A stretch of DNA of 37,913 nt. It comes from a virus. This document shows, piece by piece, positions 17,029 through 33,612 of the stretch. Position 1 is the first letter of the stretch, and each line of letters opens with the position of its first letter. The notes below the pieces were generated by a model. The model saw only the letters and a program-made list of their open reading frames with translations. It was not told the origin of the DNA and did no database searches. The translations under genes were made by a program, and so were the position numbers. Location: IMG/VR virus record IMGVR_UViG_3300049855_000145, positions 1 through 37,913 of that record; one strand, written 5' to 3'.

Positions 17029-17460
17029 ATGTTAGGACTAATTCTCAAATGGCTATCAGGTGGTGCGCTCACAGCCATCACCGGGGTCTTTGAAGCCTAC
17101 TTCAACAAGAAGATCACCGAGGAGGAACTGAAGGTTCAACTCGGAACGGCTCTCGCAGCCGGCATGACGGACATCGCCAAGACGCAAGGCGACGTGATCA
17201 AGACCGAGTTGACTGGTCAGGATTGGTTGCAGCGCAACTGGCGCGCGATCCTCGCGACGACTTCTTTCTTCTCCTACTGGTTCGTGATCTTCGCGTACCC
17301 GTTCTTTCTCGCGTGGGGCTGGCTCCCATCCGTGAAGTTCGGTGAGGTGGGTCTCGAGAACATGTTCTACCTGACAGTGGTCTGCGTCGGCGGGTACATC
17401 GGCGGCAAGTCAGTCGAGAACATCGTCGCAGCGCTAACGCGCTACGTGGTGAAGAAGTGA
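17029..17460 (+). CDS. Holin, GTA-type with C-terminal membrane segments
   Basis: This 143-residue protein resembles the 'holin of 3TMs for gene-transfer release' family. The first segment (LILKWLSGGALTAITGVF) is amphipathic or membrane-spanning. An acidic-basic helix follows (KITEEELKVQLGTALAAG), then the family-like QDWLQRNWRAILATTSFFSY. Two hydrophobic segments come next (FFSYWFVIFAYPFFLAWGW and FYLTVVCVGGYIGG). It would form inner-membrane holes at lysis. No separate endolysin or spanin is in the window. A good ribosome-binding site (GGAG, about 17020-17023) precedes it, and it is the last gene before the non-coding region. Confidence 0.8.
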   Translation: MLGLILKWLSGGALTAITGVFEAYFNKKITEEELKVQLGTALAAGMTDIAKTQGDVIKTELTGQDWLQRNWRAILATTSFFSYWFVIFAYPFFLAWGWLPSVKFGEVGLENMFYLTVVCVGGYIGGKSVENIVAALTRYVVKK

Positions 17461-17477
17461 CACTGTGCGGTTGCACC

Positions 17478-17728
17478 CGCCACATTCGAGAAACCGCTGT
17501 GCGCCTCATTCTACCGGTGTGCTTGCGGGATTTTCGCTCGGAACGTGAGTGGGCGACCGCATGTTGACATAGACGCGCACGAGAGCTGAAAAATTTTTTC
17601 GTTCACATGCGCGTGCCACAACCGCCACAACCGGTATATTCGTCAGCAACTACAAGCGCATAGGTGTGGCGGTGTCGAGCACCACATACCGCCACAACTC
17701 GAAATTCGGTAGTGAAATCAACGCCACA
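17478..17728. repeat. Iteron-like CGCCACA motifs
   Basis: CGCCACA occurs at 17478, 17623, 17690 and 17722 on the + strand and inverted at 17665-17671. TGCCACA is at 17614. GCCACAACC is in direct tandem at 17615-17632. TGTGGCGGT (17665-17673) and ACCGCCACA (17688-17696) make a 9-bp inverted pair. Five exact copies of a 7-mer in about 250 bases is far above chance. Confidence 0.55.
17573..17614. repeat. 42-bp interrupted inverted repeat centred on GAAAAATTTTTTC
   Basis: ACGCGCA (17573-17579) pairs with TGCGCGT (17608-17614), and A5 (17589-17593) pairs with T5 (17594-17598). All share one centre at 17593.5. Of 21 pairs I count 16 Watson-Crick, 2 G-T and 3 mismatches. There is no loop, so a protein-binding or cruciform-type DNA element is more natural than an RNA hairpin. 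Confidence 0.6.
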
Positions 17729-17822
17729 CCGCGTTACGGACTGATTTTAAGAACAGCTCACCAGCGCGCGTCTATACAGCCGCCCGACGAGGGACTACAG
17801 TGACAACGAAACAGGAGGCACC

Positions 17823-18611
17823 ATGATACTCACCGCACCAAAGACCCACATCATCGGTTCGACCGAAATGCAGCCAGTCGATGGCTGGGCCGCCGACTAC
17901 GGCCTGACGCCCGTCCTCATGGACGATGATACGCCGCTCGGTAACCTCGGCGGCATCCTCGATCCAGAAAACCTGATCGAGTTCGCAGGACGGCATTGCT
18001 ATCGGTCATGGAACAAAGGCCGCGGCACCGAGGACTACATCCGCAATCTGATCGAGCAGGGCCACGAATCTGTTCTCGAGCACGTGTCGATCAACTTTGC
18101 CATCGGCGGCGTTTCGCGCACGTTGACGCATGAGTTGCTTCGCCATCGCCCAGGCATCGCAATCAGCCAGGAGTCGCAGCGCTACGTCAATGCGAAAGAC
18201 ATCAACTTCGTCGTGCCGCCACTTTACTTGTGGTTGTGCCAGCACGACTTGAACCATCCGAAGATCAAGTTCTGGGAGTCGTCGGTCGAAGCGACACGTG
18301 CGGCCTACATCGAACTCATGAACGGTTCGCTTGCGACCGCAGGCCCCGCCTCGACAATCGAGCACAAACGCCTCGCCGAAGCCGCTCGCAGCGTCCTATC
18401 AAACGCGGCCGAGACGCGCCTCACATGGACGGCCAACATCAGGATCCTGCGCCACGTGTTCAAGATGCGTGGGCAGCAGGCCGCAGATCTCGAGATTCGC
18501 CGCCTCGACGCACAATTGTTCGACCTCGTCCAGCCGCGCTACGCAATCTTCTTTGAAGACCTCAAGAAGGTCAATGGGGACTTCGGCGTTCCGATGATCG
18601 TTCCCAAGTGA
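17823..18611 (+). CDS. thyX: FAD-dependent thymidylate synthase ThyX
   Basis: This enzyme makes dTMP from dUMP using FAD and methylenetetrahydrofolate. The 262-residue protein has the conserved GHESVLEHVSINF (about 80-92) and the ThyX signature RHRPGIAISQESQRYV (107-122). The spacing from RHR to Ser is eight residues, where the textbook motif has seven. The ending IFFEDLKKVNGDFG is unremarkable. A strong AGGAGG precedes the ATG, and this is the first gene after the control region. It overlaps the helicase gene by GTGA. It supplies dTTP together with the dCMP deaminase at 35677. Confidence 0.93.
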   Translation: MILTAPKTHIIGSTEMQPVDGWAADYGLTPVLMDDDTPLGNLGGILDPENLIEFAGRHCYRSWNKGRGTEDYIRNLIEQGHESVLEHVSINFAIGGVSRTLTHELLRHRPGIAISQESQRYVNAKDINFVVPPLYLWLCQHDLNHPKIKFWESSVEATRAAYIELMNGSLATAGPASTIEHKRLAEAARSVLSNAAETRLTWTANIRILRHVFKMRGQQAADLEIRRLDAQLFDLVQPRYAIFFEDLKKVNGDFGVPMIVPK

Positions 18612-20275
18612 AGATAACGGACGCCGATAAAGGGTTCTGCGTCCTCGACGGCGCGAACCTCAAGCAGCGGCAGTGGCTCGAAAAGAAGCTCCTGACGGAC
18701 GTCAACCTTGTTGGCGACCGCGTCTTCTTCAAACCGACGCCGCAAGTCATGGAGTTCTTCGGCGGTCTGAATAACATCGTGATCGACACGAAGGACGTGA
18801 AGACCCGCGGCATCAACCACGACTATACGCTGTCCCTCGCGATCCCGGACTACGACCACCAGGACGAGACGAAGCCAAAGATTCGCGAGATGGGTGACTT
18901 CGGATTGATCTGGGAAGTCGGCCTTGGCAAGTCAAAGACAGCAATTGACATTGCGATGGAGCGGTTCATCAATCGCCAGATCAACGCGGTGCTCGTCATC
19001 ACGTTGAAAGGCGTCCACAAGAAGTGGATCTCGAAAGACTTGAAAGAGCACATGACCATTCCTTGCGAGGCGAAGGCGTGGCCAATCTCGCCGACGAAGC
19101 AAGACAAGCTCCTCGCTCATGACGGCTTGATCGTCGCGACCATCAACTTCGACTCGATGTGGCGCAAGGCTGGCCTCGCCTTTGTGCACCGCATGCTCAC
19201 CATGCGCAAGGTTCAGATTGTCGTTGACGAGTCGCACGAAGTGTCTGGCCACGACGCGCAGCGCACGAAGGCGCTCATGAAGATTGCGCCGCTCGCAAAG
19301 TTCAGGATGATCCTGACAGGCACGCTCATTCCTTCGACGCCGTTGCAGCTTTGGTCTCAGTTCGAGATCATGCGGCCTGGGTTCTGGAACATGAACTACT
19401 ACCAGTACAAGGCGCGGTACTCGATTGAGAAAGAGATGCCCGGCATCACCTATCAGCGTTTCAACAAGAAGACGCAGCAGATGGAGGACAAGCCGGTCAA
19501 GACCGTTGTCGGGTACAAGAACCTTGAGGAACTCAACGCGAAGATTACGCCGTGGGTGACGCGCTACGACAAGTCGGTGTTGAACCTGCCCGAGCAATTG
19601 TATGCGCCCGAGTACTTCGACCTGACAGACGAGCAGCGCAAGATCTACAACAAACTCGTCAAGGACAAGATGGCTGAGTTCAAGGATCAGCCGTTGACCG
19701 CTGAAGCGTCGCTCAAGTTGCGCATCCGTCTGAACCAGATCACGCAAGGCTACTTTATAGCAGACGATGGGGCGGTTCATCACTTCGACGTTAACCCGCG
19801 CATGGACTCGCTCGTCAACGTCCTGCAGCAAATCCCGCCGAACAAGAAAGCGCTGATCTGGGCGCCGTTCCGAGAAAGCATATTGTTGCTTCGCGACACA
19901 TTGACTAAGTTCGGTGGTGGGCTTGTCGAATACTGGGGCGACACACCAGATAACGAGCGCGAAGCGAACGTGTACACGTTCCAGCACGATCCCAATGTCA
20001 GATGGTTCCTGGCCAATCCGGCCGCTGCTGGAACAGGTTTGACATTGACGGCAGCGACCTATGCGCTGTACTATGCGAACTCAACCCGTCGAGTGCATCG
20101 GGAGCAGTCAGAAGGACGCCCGCACCGCATCGGCCAAACTGAACCCGTGACCTACGTCGACTTCATTGCGAACGGGTCACAAGATGAAAAGCAGATTGAG
20201 ACCTTTCGGAAGCAAATGGACATGGCTGCCGTCATTCAAGGCAGCGAGCTTCCGAAATGGCTTGTCTTGGAGTAG
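18608..20275 (+). CDS. SNF2-family DNA helicase/translocase
   Basis: This 555-residue superfamily 2 ATPase has motif I WEVGLGKSKTAID (about 102-114), motif II VVDESHEVSGHDA (DESH at 207-210), and motif III LTGTLIPSTPLQLWSQFE. In the C-terminal lobe, motif V is GTGLTLTAATYALYYAN and motif VI is QSEGRPHRIGQTEPVTYVDF, the SNF2-typical 'R.HRIGQ'. The start is a GTG in GTGA overlapping the thyX stop. Phage SNF2 proteins are thought to act in replication, recombination or fork remodelling. The exact role here is not visible. Confidence 0.9.
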   Translation: MKITDADKGFCVLDGANLKQRQWLEKKLLTDVNLVGDRVFFKPTPQVMEFFGGLNNIVIDTKDVKTRGINHDYTLSLAIPDYDHQDETKPKIREMGDFGLIWEVGLGKSKTAIDIAMERFINRQINAVLVITLKGVHKKWISKDLKEHMTIPCEAKAWPISPTKQDKLLAHDGLIVATINFDSMWRKAGLAFVHRMLTMRKVQIVVDESHEVSGHDAQRTKALMKIAPLAKFRMILTGTLIPSTPLQLWSQFEIMRPGFWNMNYYQYKARYSIEKEMPGITYQRFNKKTQQMEDKPVKTVVGYKNLEELNAKITPWVTRYDKSVLNLPEQLYAPEYFDLTDEQRKIYNKLVKDKMAEFKDQPLTAEASLKLRIRLNQITQGYFIADDGAVHHFDVNPRMDSLVNVLQQIPPNKKALIWAPFRESILLLRDTLTKFGGGLVEYWGDTPDNEREANVYTFQHDPNVRWFLANPAAAGTGLTLTAATYALYYANSTRRVHREQSEGRPHRIGQTEPVTYVDFIANGSQDEKQIETFRKQMDMAAVIQGSELPKWLVLE

Positions 20276-22096: not shown

Positions 22097-23761
22097 ATGA
22101 CTGAAGTGACTGTTACCGGCGAGCAGGTCCATGCTTTCATGGGCCTGTTTCGCGGATACCCAAATCGGTTCGGTCGTTTTGTTGTAACGGGTGTAGACGA
22201 GACCAAAGGTAAGACCAAAGGTACAGTCAACACCGAATACCGGCCACCAAACGAAAGCGACTTCAGGCGTCACCTCGAAGGTCGCGAGCGCGTGGGCATT
22301 GTTCCATTGCGCGAGGACAACACCGTATCTTTTTCAGCGCTCGACATTGACATCTACAACGGCGACGTTACGATTGCCGACTTCTCGAAGCGCATCATGA
22401 AGCTACCTTTGATCTGCACCTCGTCGAAGTCGGGTGGTATCCACGTGTGGATGTTCACCGATCCTCCCGCGCCAGCAGCAGACATCATCAAAGTCATGAA
22501 ACACTGGGCCGGAGAGCTCGGGCATTCTCGTTGCGAGGTGTTCCCGAAGCAATCAGGTCGTGCCAACAAGGATGACGTTGGTAATTGGATCAATCTCCCG
22601 TACTTCGGCAACACGTGCAAGGCCGTGCTGTGGAACAATGACGGGACCGAGATGCGCACGCTCGAACTCGACGAGTTCCTGAAGGTTGCGAAAAACACAA
22701 ACCCAGATTTGAACTACATCACCGAAGGCGCGCTCAAAGTGACGTCTCGTGATAAAGGCGCGTCGGCCCATGACTTCAACGATGGACCGCCGTGCCTTCA
22801 AACAATTCTTCGCAACTTCTCGTCAGGCGAACTCGACCTGTCGGGAACGCGCAACATCGCCCTTTTCAACATTGCGACCTACTTGAAGCGCAAGCATGAC
22901 GGCCCGAAGGCGCGGTCGATTGTCGCAAACATCAACACAGGCGGTTACACACTGACCATTGACCACTCTCGGACGAAGAAGGCCGCTGAAGACGCTACCG
23001 AGGTCATCAACGTCCCAGCATTCGGCTTGCCTGAAGACGAGCTCAAGAAGACCGTCCTTCGCCAGACAGAGAAGGAGTATGGGTACCAGTGCAGTCAATT
23101 CCCGTTGTCAGAGTTCTGCCAGAAGACCGTCTGCAAGAAGCGCAAGTATGGTGTCGGTTCAGACAATCGAGGCGACTTCGACGTCTCGATTGAAAACTTC
23201 GTGCAGTACAACACAAACCCGCCGCAGTACTTCTGCGACGTGGGAGGTAAGCGAGTCATCATCAAGACATCTGACGATCTGATGAACTTCAAGAAGTTTC
23301 AGGCGAGGGTTCTCGACTATACGACCATCCACGTTCCCGACCTGACCGCGAAACAATGGAACGACTTCCTGCACAAGCACCTCGAGCACATTGAAGTCAT
23401 TGAACCTCCTTACGAAGGTTCGGACGTTGTCGCGGCGCTCTTCAGCTACGTCAACGAGCGCAAGGCGAAGACTATCGAGGACATGGCGAAAGACAAGAAG
23501 GCCTACAAGAACGTCAAGCTCGGCTTCTACGAGTTCATGCCTGACGGGTTCAGGCGCTGGGCGACAAGTGAGGGTCTGATCAAGAACTTTGACTCGCGTG
23601 TGGTGCGCGAGGAACTCGAGAAAGAACTTGACCTCAAGGTGAGCACCGATGTAACAAAACGCGTCGGCAAGAATTACATTCGCGTGTGGCGCGTCCCAAT
23701 CGAGGCAATCGAAAAGCAGGAGCGCGCAGAGATTGAGATTGCGGAAGAGAGCCCATTCTGA
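22097..23761 (+). CDS. Archaeo-eukaryotic-type primase (AEP/TOTE-like) with PriL-like C-terminal part
   Basis: This 554-residue protein has the AEP catalytic motifs in order: FSALDIDIYNGD with D83/D85, then SSKSGGIHVWMF (109-120, the S.GGIH motif), then EVFPKQ (147-152) and GNWINLPYFG (162-171). This arrangement is like primases of TOTE conflict systems and related phages. Downstream, PPC (C233) with C332, C341 and C346 recalls the four Fe-S cysteines of the archaeal/eukaryotic primase large subunit. The last third is helical and ends in an acidic EIAEESPF, similar to SSB tips. It should prime replication of the phage genome. The stop overlaps the next ATG (TGATG). Confidence 0.82.
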   Translation: MTEVTVTGEQVHAFMGLFRGYPNRFGRFVVTGVDETKGKTKGTVNTEYRPPNESDFRRHLEGRERVGIVPLREDNTVSFSALDIDIYNGDVTIADFSKRIMKLPLICTSSKSGGIHVWMFTDPPAPAADIIKVMKHWAGELGHSRCEVFPKQSGRANKDDVGNWINLPYFGNTCKAVLWNNDGTEMRTLELDEFLKVAKNTNPDLNYITEGALKVTSRDKGASAHDFNDGPPCLQTILRNFSSGELDLSGTRNIALFNIATYLKRKHDGPKARSIVANINTGGYTLTIDHSRTKKAAEDATEVINVPAFGLPEDELKKTVLRQTEKEYGYQCSQFPLSEFCQKTVCKKRKYGVGSDNRGDFDVSIENFVQYNTNPPQYFCDVGGKRVIIKTSDDLMNFKKFQARVLDYTTIHVPDLTAKQWNDFLHKHLEHIEVIEPPYEGSDVVAALFSYVNERKAKTIEDMAKDKKAYKNVKLGFYEFMPDGFRRWATSEGLIKNFDSRVVREELEKELDLKVSTDVTKRVGKNYIRVWRVPIEAIEKQERAEIEIAEESPF

Positions 23762-27177: not shown

Positions 27178-27283
27178 TATACTGTGTCCAGGTGCACCTG
27201 TAGGCGATGAAGTAGCACAGTGAAACGGACTGCCTGAGTGAGACGAGTCGACGCCAATCGGCCGGAGGAGTGCAAGGCTCCTC
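27178..27283 (+). promoter_or_regulatory. Candidate promoter/operator and structured leader of the queC operon
   Basis: TATACT (27178-27183) would be a good -10 box, although no clear -35 is seen. A perfect 12-bp palindrome CAGGTGCACCTG (27189-27200) lies where transcription would start, a natural operator position. A leader of roughly 120 bases runs to queC at 27318. It includes a hairpin of GAGGAG (27265-27270) with CTCCTC (27278-27283). I could not match the leader to a known preQ1 riboswitch consensus. Confidence 0.35.
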
Positions 27284-27317
27284 AATCAACTGTAATGGTG
27301 AACCAGGAGAGAAAACC

Positions 27318-28112
27318 ATGAAGAAAGAAAAGGCCCTCGTCGTCCTTTCGGGCGGCCAGGATTCAACGACATGCCTGTACTGGGCGCTTGCCCAAGGCTA
27401 TGATGTCCAGTGCGTCACGTTCGACTACGGTCAGCGTCACAAGATCGAGATCGACGCCGCCCGACTGATCGCCGAGAAGGCCGGCGTCACGACCGAGGTG
27501 ATCGAACTCGGACCCATCCTCGCTGGCACATCGCCGCTTGTGTCGAGCAATGAACTCGACCAGTACAGTGACATGAACTCCCTGCCCGGCGGCCTCGAGA
27601 AGACCTTCGTCCCATATCGCAACCAGCTCTTCCTCACCGTGGCCGCGAACCGCGCCTATGTCGCAGGCATCAACGTTCTCGTGACTGGCGTCTGCCAGGA
27701 AGACTTCGGCGGCTATCCTGACTGCCGGCGCTCCTTCATCGACTCGCTGCAGCAAGCGTGTACACGTGGTTCCCACAACGGCGTTGACGGTGCGCCTGGG
27801 CCCTTGCGCATCGAGACCCCACTGATGTTCCTCACGAAGGCCGCATCGGTCAAGCTGGCCGCATCGCTGGCGCCTGCGCCGAACGGTTCGACGTGCTGGG
27901 ACGCCCTCGCGTACTCCCACACGGCCTACGATGGCAAGTACCCACCGACCGGCCACGATCACGCAACATTGCTCCGCGCAAAGGGCTTCTTCGAAGCCGG
28001 CCTGCCTGATCCGCTTGTCCTCCGCGCCGTCGAGGAAGGCGTGATGGATGCGCCCGGCACCGCCAACTATGACTTCCTGCGGATCGTCGCGAAGGAGGCC
28101 GCCGCGTCGTGA
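27318..28112 (+). CDS. queC: 7-cyano-7-deazaguanine synthase QueC (variant without the usual zinc cysteines)
   Basis: QueC converts 7-carboxy-7-deazaguanine to preQ0 using ATP and ammonia. The ATG at 27318 follows CAGGAG and gives 264 residues. The PP-loop is SGGQDST (11-17), and further family marks are FDYGQRHKIEI (35-45), FVPYRNQLFL (97-106) and GGYPDCRRSFID (131-142). The C-terminal zinc site usually has four Cys. Here C193 (STCW) is kept, but the 'CG.C..C.LRA' part reads GHDHATLLRAKGF, with H213 and H215. The rest of the C-terminus (GLPDPLVLRA) looks intact, so the enzyme is probably active. It overlaps folE by GTGA. Confidence 0.92.
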   Translation: MKKEKALVVLSGGQDSTTCLYWALAQGYDVQCVTFDYGQRHKIEIDAARLIAEKAGVTTEVIELGPILAGTSPLVSSNELDQYSDMNSLPGGLEKTFVPYRNQLFLTVAANRAYVAGINVLVTGVCQEDFGGYPDCRRSFIDSLQQACTRGSHNGVDGAPGPLRIETPLMFLTKAASVKLAASLAPAPNGSTCWDALAYSHTAYDGKYPPTGHDHATLLRAKGFFEAGLPDPLVLRAVEEGVMDAPGTANYDFLRIVAKEAAAS

Positions 28113-28687
28113 TTTTCTCGGACAAGGAAGCAGTGATTGAGCGTCTCCTGTCAATGACGGGAGACGATGTTACCCGTGAAGGCCTCAAGGAGACTCCAAG
28201 TCGAGTTGTTAAGGCTTTTGAACACTGGTTCGACGGCTACGGACAAGATCCTGCGGCCGTCTTGAAAACCTTCGAAGATGGCGCTGAAGGTTCGGATGAA
28301 ATGGTCCTCGAGACAGACATCCCGATCAACTCAAAGTGCGAGCATCACATGGCTGACATCTTTGGCATCGCCCACATCGCCTACATTCCAAATGGGCGCG
28401 TTGTTGGCTTGTCGAAACTGTCTCGTGTGGTCGACATCTTCGCACACCGCCTACAGGTGCAAGAGCGATTGACAACACAGATCGCTGACGCATTGCAGGA
28501 GCACCTCGCGCCGAAGGGCGTCGGCGTTGTGCTTCAGTGTCGGCACATGTGCATGGAGTCGCGCGGCATCAAGAGGCGTGGCATCGTGACGACCACGAGC
28601 GCCCTTCGTGGGTGCATGAAGAAGGAACCTAGTGCCCGCGCTGAACTCATGAATCTGATCGCTATGACAAGCAAAGGAGATATCTGA
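28109..28687 (+). CDS. folE: GTP cyclohydrolase I FolE
   Basis: FolE opens GTP to dihydroneopterin triphosphate, the first step of both folate and preQ0 synthesis. The 192-residue protein has all family marks: EGLKETPSRVVKAF (24-37), the zinc motif NSKCEHH (C77, H80), GLSKLSRVVDIFAHRLQVQE (100-119) and CRHMCMESRGIKRRG with C148 as third zinc ligand. Length is normal for the short bacterial form. The phage copy would raise supply for DNA modification. It sits between queC and queF with overlapping codons on both sides. Confidence 0.96.
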   Translation: MIFSDKEAVIERLLSMTGDDVTREGLKETPSRVVKAFEHWFDGYGQDPAAVLKTFEDGAEGSDEMVLETDIPINSKCEHHMADIFGIAHIAYIPNGRVVGLSKLSRVVDIFAHRLQVQERLTTQIADALQEHLAPKGVGVVLQCRHMCMESRGIKRRGIVTTTSALRGCMKKEPSARAELMNLIAMTSKGDI

Positions 28688-29205
28688 TGGCATCACTTCC
28701 TCCACACTTCTACTACTCGACCGGCTTCGAAGATCGTCCCATGACGCGCGAGCAGGCCGAGAAGATGTCGCAGACCAAGGACCTCAAGGCTCTTGGCAAG
28801 TCGACCGAGTACAACTTGACGCAAGCCGACTCGAGCATCCTCGAGACGTTCCCGTCCGTCTACAAGAACATCAAGGTCAAGGGCGCCTCTCCCATTGTCA
28901 AGCTGCCGCAGCCTGTCAAGGAGTTCACGTCGCTGTGCCCACTGACCGGCCAGCCGGACTTCGCAGACATCTACGTCGAGTACCAGCCGCGTGACAAGAT
29001 GCTGGAATCGAAGTCGTGGAAGCTGTATCTGTTCTCGTTCCGCACAACGGCCGAGTTCCACGAGGCTTGCGTCACCAAGATCTTCAACGACCTGCACGAC
29101 GCCCTCGACCCGCTGTATCTGCACGTCCAGGGCAACTTCACGCCTCGCGGCGGCATCTCGATTGTCCCGCGCATCGAATGGTGGGCGCCGGACTTCAATG
29201 CCTGA
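28687..29205 (+). CDS. queF: NADPH-dependent preQ0 reductase QueF (type I)
   Basis: QueF reduces the nitrile of preQ0 to the aminomethyl of preQ1. The 172-residue protein fits the short, YkvM-like type. LKALGKSTEYNL and SSILETFPSVYKN are in the N-terminal part, the catalytic Cys is C84 in TSLCPLTGQPDFADI with D91, and the QueF motif ESKSWKLYLFSFR is at 107-119. After it come FHE (124-126) and GNFTPRGGISIVP. A strong AAAGGAG precedes the TGATG start. Its presence means the phage base is likely to be preQ1 or a product of it, not preQ0. Confidence 0.92.
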   Translation: MASLPPHFYYSTGFEDRPMTREQAEKMSQTKDLKALGKSTEYNLTQADSSILETFPSVYKNIKVKGASPIVKLPQPVKEFTSLCPLTGQPDFADIYVEYQPRDKMLESKSWKLYLFSFRTTAEFHEACVTKIFNDLHDALDPLYLHVQGNFTPRGGISIVPRIEWWAPDFNA

Positions 29206-29515
29206 ACACTACGACCCACCGAAGGAAGTCGTCGAGCAAGGTCGGCGACTTCTTTACCATGGCTGGATCGAGATGCCTAACGGCTATGGTCTTTTCATGT
29301 ACACCGACCCATCAGTCAACGCGCTGGAATATTGGTCGGACGAAATCGGCGGCGGTGTTATGGTATGGCAGACAGCTTTAGTCGATCATTCGACACTTGA
29401 GTTCGCCCTCAAGCATTGGAGACAGAATTATGGCCCCTCGCTTCTTCGTCGAACGCAACACGCAATTAAGAGGTTCGGCAAATGGCTCAACCGTTATGGA
29501 CCGTTCAACAGGTGA
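29198..29515 (+). CDS. Hypothetical protein between queF and dpdA
   Basis: The ATG at 29198 lies eight bases inside the end of queF and gives 105 residues. The N-terminal half is aromatic-rich (RLLYHGWIEMPNGYGLFMYT) and looks like a small beta domain. The C-terminal third is basic and helical (HWRQNYGPSLLRRTQHAIKR). No family is recognised. Its place between two base-modification genes makes a helper role possible but unproven. Confidence 0.6.
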   Translation: MPEHYDPPKEVVEQGRRLLYHGWIEMPNGYGLFMYTDPSVNALEYWSDEIGGGVMVWQTALVDHSTLEFALKHWRQNYGPSLLRRTQHAIKRFGKWLNRYGPFNR

Positions 29516-29642
29516 GAAGATTGCCATCTGTCCTGAACATGTGACGGCTGAGATCATCGCATCAATGATGAACCAGCGCGTCCGTTACAGAGAGCCGCTT
29601 CACTCACTCAGCAAGAAAGATGCGGCCTATGCAGGTCACTAA
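29430..29642 (+). CDS. Small hypothetical protein upstream of dpdA
   Basis: The ATG at 29430 with GGAGA seven bases upstream is preferred over an in-frame start at 29397 and gives 70 residues. It overlaps the previous gene by 86 bases, which lowers confidence. The sequence is basic at the start (MAPRFFVERNTQLRGSANGS), then CPEHVTAEIIASMMNQRVRY. No family is recognised. Confidence 0.45.
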   Translation: MAPRFFVERNTQLRGSANGSTVMDRSTGEKIAICPEHVTAEIIASMMNQRVRYREPLHSLSKKDAAYAGH

Positions 29643-29657
29643 GTGCGTGAGGGAACA

Positions 29658-30653
29658 ATGAGATTTTACCATTCTGGTACACCACGCAACGATCAGTACC
29701 AACACTTCGAAGATTCAATTTGTGATCATCGTCTGTTTTCGCTCCACGGTGATTACTACAAGGCAGTCAGCAAGTGGGTAGATGCCCTACCTCCCGACCG
29801 CTCGGTGCGCAAGTACCCACGCACCTTGTTGCTTGACTCTGGCGCGTTCACCGCGTGGAACGCTGGACAACCAACAACGGTCGAGGAGGTCACTCGCACT
29901 TACGATAGCATCCTTAAGCGCGTTGAAGGCAAGTTCGACGAGATCACTTGCGTCAACTTGGACGTCATCCCAGGCGAGCGTGGCCGAACTGCGACGAGTG
30001 ATGAGATCCTCGCTGGTTTTGAACGTTCAGACATCAACTTCGAGATTCTCATCAAGCGTTTCGGCAAGCGCATCCTGCCGGTGTTCCACCAGGATGAAGA
30101 AGTCATTGCTCCTCACCGCCTGAAGATCGTCTGCGATCAAGCCGAGTACATCTGCTTGTCGCCGCGAAACGACGTCCACGAAGCGTCACGTCACGACTGG
30201 TCAATTCAGATGCACCAGCGCGTGTTCGCTATCGACCCGAAGAAACGCACCCACGGCCTCGCGACGACTGGTAACGCGATGATCCGCGATGTGCCTTGGT
30301 TCAGCGTCGATTCCGCGGCCTGGGTTCTGCATGGAGGCATGGCCGGCAAGGTCGACTTCTATGATCCGATGCCTGACGGGACGCCGCGCTACCGTAACTT
30401 CTTCGTCGCCCTCGAAGGCGGCAAACAAGCTATGAAAGATGCTCACCTTATCAATCGTGCGGATCGTGATCATTTCACAAAGATAATCGAGTCCTACGGC
30501 TTCACCTACCAAGAAGCCGAGACGTCAGGCCGTATCCGGTCGCTTATCTGCATGGGCGAGCTGTCGAAGTTCTTCGACGCGGCAAGAGCCGCTCAGACGA
30601 TAAGGATGGCGCGCGGTCAGGAGACCTGGCAAGACACCTTGTTTGACGGTTGA
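29658..30653 (+). CDS. dpdA: DNA guanine transglycosylase DpdA (TGT-like)
   Basis: DpdA exchanges guanine in DNA for a 7-deazaguanine base and is related to tRNA-guanine transglycosylase. With the ATG at 29658 it has 331 residues (an in-frame GTG at 29643 is possible). Motifs along the TIM barrel are LLLDSGAFTAWNAG (57-70, D60), CVNLDVIPG (98-106), ILPVFHQDEE (139-148), YICLSPRNDV (164-173), HGLATTGNAMI (199-209) and PWFSVDSAAWVLHG (213-226, with D218 the likely nucleophile region). The 'DSGAF' and 'PWFSVDS..W' pairs are typical of phage DpdA. The subfamily cannot be told by eye. It follows queC-folE-queF, which supplies its substrate. Confidence 0.88.
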   Translation: MRFYHSGTPRNDQYQHFEDSICDHRLFSLHGDYYKAVSKWVDALPPDRSVRKYPRTLLLDSGAFTAWNAGQPTTVEEVTRTYDSILKRVEGKFDEITCVNLDVIPGERGRTATSDEILAGFERSDINFEILIKRFGKRILPVFHQDEEVIAPHRLKIVCDQAEYICLSPRNDVHEASRHDWSIQMHQRVFAIDPKKRTHGLATTGNAMIRDVPWFSVDSAAWVLHGGMAGKVDFYDPMPDGTPRYRNFFVALEGGKQAMKDAHLINRADRDHFTKIIESYGFTYQEAETSGRIRSLICMGELSKFFDAARAAQTIRMARGQETWQDTLFDG

Positions 30654-32477: not shown

Positions 32478-32878
32478 AGTCATCCGCCTCGCAGATGGCG
32501 GCGATCATGTCGCCGGCCTTCGTCAAGGCACGCCTCGAAGAGAAGGACTCGATGCTCGATCCGAGCGTCCTCGAGACCCTTCATCAGCTCAAGCGGGCAC
32601 ACTTTCCAAACCCGCCGGCGCGTCCTGGCAACATTCACCACACCGGCCGCGTCTACGAGGCTGCAACGCCTATCGTCGCCTCGCGGCATGAACCGCACAT
32701 CGTCAACGGCAAGCAGCACATGCAGCAGACTTATGTTCTGCGCGATCCCGAGAACCCAGACTCGCTGAAGAAGCTGCTGAAGGTTCCGGTCATGCTGCAC
32801 CGCGGCATGGACCGCAAGGTTCTGAAGAAGGCGCTCTACAACGACCGCCGTCTCGCGAAAGGACGCTGGGTGAACTGA
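32456..32878 (+). CDS. Hypothetical basic protein upstream of queE
   Basis: The ATG at 32456 with AGGAG nine bases upstream gives 140 residues. The protein is basic, with ETLHQLKRAHFPNPPARPG in the middle and LLKVPVMLHRGMDRKVLKKA near the end. No family is recognised. It overlaps the clamp-like gene by 22 bases and shares one base with queE (TGATG), so it is translated with both. Confidence 0.65.
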   Translation: MRPSTVLKSSASQMAAIMSPAFVKARLEEKDSMLDPSVLETLHQLKRAHFPNPPARPGNIHHTGRVYEAATPIVASRHEPHIVNGKQHMQQTYVLRDPENPDSLKKLLKVPVMLHRGMDRKVLKKALYNDRRLAKGRWVN

Positions 32879-33612
32879 TGTTCGGACAGAATCGCCCTCG
32901 CGGCAACAATGACGTGAAGGAAGGCCAACTGCAAGTTCACGAGATCTTCTACACACTCCAGGGCGAGGGGCCGTTCTCCGGCTACCCCGCCGTCTTCGTT
33001 CGGCTGTCAGGCTGCAATCTTCGTTGCTGGTTCTGCGACACGAAGTGGGATGATGACAATGACCCTTACTGCTATCCCGAGCAAATCGTCTCGAACGTGA
33101 AGGCCATACAAGGCCGAGCGCGCCTGGTTGTCATCACGGGCGGCGAGCCCCTTCGCCAAGACTTGACCGAACTGTGCGCCTTGCTGAACGCAGCCGGCTT
33201 CATGGTTCAAATCGAAACTGCCGGCACGTACTGGCAGGACGTTTGCGTGATGGGAAAACACGTGTACACGGTCGTCTCGCCGAAGAATGGTCGCGTCCAT
33301 CCGAAGTTCAAGAACCTTCACACTTTCGTAGGACCCACGGGCGTCCCGCTCGCGGTCTGGAAGTACGTGGTGAAGGCCGGCGAAGTCGCAGATGACGGAT
33401 TGCCCATCGGCAACTTCCAGCGCTTGAAGAATGGTGAGATCGGTGGCGGCGCCCTCGAGCGTCCACCTGAAGGTGCTCGCGTCTATCTCCAGCCATGCGA
33501 CGAGTACGACGAGGAGAAGAACAAGCTCAACTATGCGGCTGTCGCGAAGTCATGCCTCGAGCATGGCTACATCGGCGGCGTGCAGGTTCACAAGCACCTG
33601 AGCCTTGAGTAG
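32878..33612 (+). CDS. queE: 7-carboxy-7-deazaguanine synthase QueE (radical SAM)
   Basis: QueE rearranges 6-carboxytetrahydropterin to 7-carboxy-7-deazaguanine using S-adenosylmethionine and a 4Fe-4S cluster. The 244-residue protein has VHEIFYTLQGEGPFSGYPAV (20-39), the radical SAM motif CNLRCWFC (C46, C50, C53) followed by DTKWDDD, and VVITGGEPLRQDL. The C-terminus ends GVQVHKHLSLE, the usual QueE 'r.hk.lgv' type. It is separated from queC-folE-queF by about 4 kb of replication genes, yet it supplies the missing step of that pathway. Confidence 0.95.
   Translation: MFGQNRPRGNNDVKEGQLQVHEIFYTLQGEGPFSGYPAVFVRLSGCNLRCWFCDTKWDDDNDPYCYPEQIVSNVKAIQGRARLVVITGGEPLRQDLTELCALLNAAGFMVQIETAGTYWQDVCVMGKHVYTVVSPKNGRVHPKFKNLHTFVGPTGVPLAVWKYVVKAGEVADDGLPIGNFQRLKNGEIGGGALERPPEGARVYLQPCDEYDEEKNKLNYAAVAKSCLEHGYIGGVQVHKHLSLE

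Follow-up and report, generated by a model that had tools for sequence, protein, structure and literature searches.

What function is served by the one long non-coding interval in this phage DNA, and which protein might read the repeats that it contains? The window (the whole stretch of 37,913 nucleotides that was analysed) is, judging by its sequence, a 37.9-kb fragment of a siphophage related to Nanhaivirus (phages R5C, R26L and Pan1). The interval, hereafter the gap, occupies positions 17461–17822 (362 bp) between the late (tail/holin) genes and the DNA-metabolism genes, and it is found in the same place in relatives. The last gene ahead of it is a putative holin ORF (17029–17460, plus strand; weak GTA_holin_3TM and PHROG holin matches), and the gene behind it is thyX (17823–18611, plus strand; Pfam Thy1, 3e-45), the first gene of the DNA-metabolism operon, with its ribosome-binding site AGGAGG at 17813–17818 on the plus strand. 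The next-longest gaps of the window measure 127, 124 and 114 bp, in agreement with the original prediction that no other gene-free stretch exceeds 300 bp. That prediction also described five CGCCACA motifs and a 42-bp dyad, and it proposed that the gap is an origin or a master control region.

CGCCACA does occur five times in the gap, with four copies on the plus strand and one on the minus strand, a count not attained in any of 1000 dinucleotide-shuffled versions of its sequence. In 200 shuffles, no 7-mer of any kind became as frequent (0/200). The gap represents 1% of the window length and contains 5 of the window's 11 CGCCACA copies, and no further cluster of the motif was found elsewhere in the window. 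Denser 7-mers than those of the gap are present only in the ORF at the window start (12–920, a tail/minor head protein), which begins with tandem peptide repeats like NVTSLVTDTIDLRW and is where DNA repeats are densest in the window. In the gap, CCACA cores also form two tandem pairs, a feature that had not been predicted, and both pairs contain the 11-mer ACCGCCACAAC. The first pair, GTGCCACAACCGCCACAAC at 17613–17631 (plus strand), has its cores 9 bp apart and CGCCACA at 17623, and the second, CACCACATACCGCCACAAC at 17680–17698 (plus strand), lies 67 bp from the first and has its cores 10 bp apart and CGCCACA at 17690. The two clusters are not significantly alike in an ungapped 25-mer comparison because of a 1-nt offset. 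The other copies are an outlying one at 17478–17484 (plus), an inverted one at 17665–17671 (minus) and a downstream one at 17722–17728 (plus). A search with CCACANNCCGCCACAAC returned 44 viral contigs with CGCCACA at most twice near the match in every one, which we took as chance.

The dyad is likewise confirmed. It is imperfect, spans 17573–17614 with arms ACGCGCA/TGCGCGT around the centre AAAAATTTTTT, and has 16 of 21 positions paired, a value equalled by none of 300 shuffles; a perfect 10-bp inverted pair is borderline by itself (17/300 shuffles). In addition to the predicted features, an imperfect element of about 25 nt, CAGCTC...GCGCGTCTAT, brackets the repeat cluster in inverted orientation. 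Its left copy is at 17564–17588 on the minus strand and its right copy at 17754–17779 on the plus strand, the latter at the site of a putative TTGCGC-N16/17-CTAYRA promoter in relatives. Sigma-70-like hexamers in the gap are limited to two weak matches, at 17613 and at 17800 (9/12 each; 0.4 expected). An RNA element was rejected, the gap having no Rfam match and no tRNA, with unremarkable strand folding (z −1.1), and so was a hidden gene, there being no convincing ORF in the gap and no counterpart of a helix-turn-helix (HTH) gene present there in relatives.

The window shares with R5C, R26L and Pan1 the gene order thyX-snf2-small ORF-Pam3 gp33-like ('grpE')-gp34-primase-UvrD-...-PolA, at identities of 44–46% for thyX, 34–35% for the SNF2 helicase (18608–20275, plus strand, syntenic in relatives) and 55–57% for PolA. 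Searches with thyX only or primase only and a search among GTDB genomes yielded no nearer relative, although very similar records may have been hidden from them. At 27270–30653 and 32878–33612 the window also carries 7-deazaguanine DNA-modification genes, comprising QueC, GTP cyclohydrolase I and QueF-like genes, a queuine tRNA-ribosyltransferase-like gene (phrog_887) and a radical SAM (QueE-like) gene.

The syntenic gap between the tail/late genes and thyX was found in R5C, R26L and Pan1 as well as in at least nine IMG/VR phages. In these relatives it holds a non-coding module whose letters differ from those of the window and which in most of them contains clustered short repeats of the phage's own. 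The usual order starts with a minus-strand HTH gene of about 65 aa, a palindromic site TAGCATAAGCGACTTATA next to that gene and a GC-rich dyad (for example GCGTTACGCGTGCGCG), and continues with clustered short tandem repeats, TGATCA/TGATCTA, the TTGCGC-N16/17-CTAYRA promoter-like element and the ribosome-binding site CAACGGAG. The HTH protein is conserved upstream of thyX in L002, L003, L004, L005 and other Nanhaivirus-like loci, and palindromic sites of the ATAASNNNSTTAT type are scattered 9–17 times per genome in R5C, Pan1, R26L and G001, a regulon-like pattern. Each phage or group has tandem repeats of its own (TGCAGGG, GCATCA, TGTGCCGC and GAGACGGTGATCAG among others). The repeat GTGCAGGG occurs in R26L, Pan1, L015, L012, L016 and L008, GCATCA in L061 and L007, GTGTGCCGC in R5C, GAGACGGTGATCAGTTGA in G001, and repeats of GTGATCA types in G006. 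They often form two clusters about 42–83 bp apart, a range that includes the 67 bp of the window. The window has this Nanhaivirus-like layout at the boundary between the late genes and the thyX-snf2 operon, a GC-rich dyad being followed by clustered short repeats. The relatives' HTH gene and its palindromic sites were not found in the window, and a CGCCACA cluster was not found in the gap of any examined relative. Conservation among relatives with the same gene order, which the original prediction had named as its test, is thus mixed: they keep a module at the same place with its own repeats and a GC-rich dyad, but not the letters of the CGCCACA clusters, the dyad and the A/T tract.

The variation of the repeats among relatives allowed a comparison with the divergence of the neighbouring genes. 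Seven operon genes from 12 relatives were used, and for each gene the average over the remaining six served as control. Primase divergence tracks the repeat class with a partial r of 0.74 (p = 0.0002; 0.66–0.86 when single relatives are left out), compared to values from −0.23 to 0.19 for the other six genes. The p values come from label permutation with no tree model, the other six genes acting as the control for the tree. The repeat classes were set by eye, after R26L, R5C and Pan1 had already pointed to the primase, and the fairer numbers are therefore those of a class-free score based on repeated 5-, 6- and 7-mers, which gave 0.58, 0.55 and 0.44 for the primase (p = 0.0002–0.0044) and 0.28–0.40 for the gene labelled grpE (p = 0.009–0.06). 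Because the genes between the repeat module and the primase do not follow the class, simple linkage is insufficient as an explanation.

Individual pairs of phages illustrate the relationship. L061 and L008 are 84–89% identical in snf2, gp34, grpE and a small ORF, but have different repeats and primases with 55% identity. R26L has a higher median gene identity to R5C (66%) than to Pan1 (59%), yet it has its repeats in common with Pan1, and its primase is 59% identical to that of Pan1 and 46% identical to that of R5C. All regions of the primase contribute to the covariation, the C-terminal part most (62% identity within the same class versus 43% between different classes). One observation counts against the coupling: the middle segment of the primase exists in two distinct forms (alignment columns 240–380), and Pan1 combines the TGCAGGG repeat of the R26L type with the form found in R5C, L061 and L007. 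The window's primase, at 29–38% identity, was too diverged to be included in the test.

The primase of the window (22097–23761, plus strand; PF22548, 2.5e-17; phrog_21866 primase, 1.3e-88) is encoded 4.3 kb downstream of the gap and is the best candidate partner of the repeats, which corrects the original prediction that the neighbouring genes offer no explanation of them. Pfam recognizes one domain in the protein, an AEP Prim-Pol domain (AEP-TOTE), and no helicase domain was found in it. A Foldseek search with its structural model matched CAPP (6e-11) and also the S-2L PrimPol and RSF1010 RepB' (3h20, E = 5e-4). In both models the C-terminal ~90 residues are predicted to form a helix-strand-helix-helix-hairpin-helix succession with medium confidence (pLDDT 69 and 72), an order of secondary structure elements that weakly suggests a winged helix. 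A fold search with this C-terminal domain gave no significant PDB match, and many of the non-significant ones were winged-helix DNA-binding proteins.

The relatives provide a further observation. When each long relative was searched with its own gap (BLAST; E values refer to the best piece), a second copy with the phage's own repeats was detected in six of the eight relatives read as long records, at a distance of 0.48–0.55 of the record. The copies were found in G001 (E = 9e-22, 0.480 of the record length), G007 (3e-20, 0.545), G006 (1e-14, 0.520), R5C (3e-10, 0.514), Pan1 (2e-7, 0.489) and R26L (0.493), the last with an E of 0.014 that is weak alone but is accompanied by several collinear short pieces. 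These six relatives have one common ancestral arrangement, and their copies therefore do not count as independent of one another. When first modules were scored against second modules in a matrix of five genomes, the within-genome score was the highest in four of the five rows; the exception is R26L, whose first module matches the second module of Pan1 better, TGCAGGG being present in both. G009 had no detectable second module and no TerS-like match on its contig, and G005 had several other self-matches. The window produced no self-matches, and any second module would lie outside the 37.9-kb fragment. Two pairs of contigs, L195/L015 and L194/L016, each from the same metagenome, resemble halves of one phage genome (sums of 68 and 80 kb), and a match between their modules supports this for L015/L195 (E = 5e-7) and only weakly for L016/L194.

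In relatives, the second module is located directly ahead of a conserved gene of ~150 aa near TerL, which we take from its position to be TerS-like, no Pfam or PHROG match backing the label. Upstream of this gene, the second module of G007 (L198, 4493–4734) also has about eight AT.AT.A.TCGC repeats with a period of 28–29 bp, which is a textbook iteron layout. The identities of TerS-like and TerL proteins do not clearly track the repeat class: TerS-like proteins are 48–75% identical in same-type pairs and 44–60% between type A and types B or C, and TerL of G001, which is of a different type, is 75–77% identical, as in same-type pairs. These proteins were accordingly set aside as covarying partners.

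Tests specific to replication origins gave a mixed picture. The clustered direct repeats of the window resemble those of iteron origins in their setting, a short non-coding stretch close to replication genes. GC skew, which had been proposed as a check, lends no support, its turning points being inconsistent over eight genomes, with no consistent turn at the position of the gap, and at four-fold sites no clear switch of a replication-like kind is visible. An upward step in AT skew lies no more than 1.7 kb from the gap in all eight genomes (the window, at 17461, and seven relatives, at the corresponding place), but the step is seen at codon positions 1+2 and not consistently at four-fold sites and therefore probably reflects gene content rather than replication. 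The absence of DnaA boxes (TTWTNCACA, 0 in the window) speaks against a DnaA-dependent origin. The modules of the relatives contain 60-bp stretches that rank among the 0.7% least stable in the respective genome; the best melting stretch in the window's gap is at 4.3% (4th percentile) and is not conspicuous.

These results lead us to interpret the gap as a control module heading the DNA-metabolism operon, most probably a replication-origin-type site whose repeats are read by the primase or by an initiator that evolves together with it, a reading to which we assign a probability of about 0.55. The proposal of an origin or master control region was thus in the right neighbourhood with respect to the same-place modules and their covariation with the primase, and went without support from GC skew. 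The clustered short repeats (CGCCACA here) beside the GC-rich dyad would be bound by the phage's own AEP-type primase, possibly directly through its predicted winged helix, or alternatively by the co-evolving initiator, and binding would lead to DNA synthesis primed at the module, which would overlap the regulatory region of the thyX operon. That primase divergence follows the repeat type favours iteron-like sites of a primase or initiator, that is, origin or priming sites. Where the window is concerned, this conclusion is drawn from position and layout, since its second module would lie beyond the sequence at hand and its primase has diverged too far to enter the covariation analysis, and we presume that what the relatives indicate carries over.

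The main rival is transcription control, in which an activator, repressor or antiterminator encoded by the phage would bind the repeats and drive the DNA-metabolism and the packaging/structure operons, with one module ahead of each. It owes this position to the fact that both modules of the relatives face long rightward operons in the same direction, and it fits the location of the holin-to-thyX interval at the late/early boundary, the promoter-like element just downstream of the relatives' first module and the adjoining HTH gene with its palindromic site. However, that conserved site (of the ATAAGCGACTTAT type) differs from the variable repeats, which makes the HTH protein an unlikely reader of them, and both the gene and the site are missing from the window. 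Moreover, among the tested genes only the primase clearly diverges along with the repeats, and CGCCACA forms no second cluster within the window. Transcription control is accordingly a possible but doubtful explanation. That the repeats are functionless products of unconstrained intergenic DNA would agree with the lack of conservation of the 7-mer and with the unremarkable strand folding, but it is rendered very improbable by the shuffle tests, the fixed syntenic position and the twin copies and covariation in relatives. A role as pac-like or terminase-recognition sites, suggested by the TerS-like gene and TerL beside the second module, is very improbable given that the first module is far from the terminase genes and that the terminase identities have no clear link to the repeat type.

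Within the preferred reading of an origin-type site, we tentatively propose a broader model that may well not hold as a whole: in Nanhaivirus-like phages, replication would start, or priming would occur, at twin modules separated by roughly half the genome, and an AEP primase would recognize their repeats through its C-terminal domain. The repeats at both sites and the primase would switch specificity together as a replication-compatibility set, CGCCACA being one such specificity. If true, each genome would have two candidate origin sites and a candidate initiator that is not a dedicated Rep protein, and the matched pairs of repeat and primase in these phages would form a natural series in which to study how two distant sites change their origin specificity in concert. 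Among open-access papers, we found no description of twin half-genome modules with repeats that switch alongside an AEP primase, and our literature search found no replication origin described for these dG-modifying siphophages, including R5C, R26L and Pan1.

The closest known counterparts of the module are the gaps upstream of thyX in R5C, R26L and Pan1, which resemble it in gene order, position, clustered repeats and GC-rich dyad and differ from it in the repeat letters and in the presence of operator sites and of the HTH gene. Phage origins of the iteron type are already a known kind of element, as are twin origins, and in phage P4 the second site is crr. Phage SPP1, with oriL and oriR and the origin-binding protein gp38 (PMC6316719, PMC3485210), is similar as a lytic siphophage with two similar direct-repeat sites, one at the replication genes and one in the late region. 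The SPP1 sites, however, are ~12–13 kb apart rather than about half a genome, they are served by a dedicated initiator and a DnaB-type helicase where the AEP primase is the partner candidate here, and in the present phages the repeats vary between close relatives. The P4 alpha protein, a Toprim-type primase in which a winged helix reads the origin repeats (PMC4234260), offers a parallel to a primase-containing protein that recognizes short origin repeats through such a domain, which here is weakly predicted, but it has a helicase domain whereas the AEP primase has none recognized. ORF904 of pRN1 is an AEP prim-pol with a C-terminal winged helix (PMC4234260) and thus resembles the arrangement predicted for the window's primase. 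It differs in having an SF3 helicase domain and an origin that is a stem-loop without iterons. In RSF1010, finally, the primase RepB', a fold match of the window's primase model, recognizes specific initiation DNA, the ssi sites, as is proposed here for the repeats; the ssi sites differ from the module in being single-strand initiation hairpins beside a RepC iteron origin.
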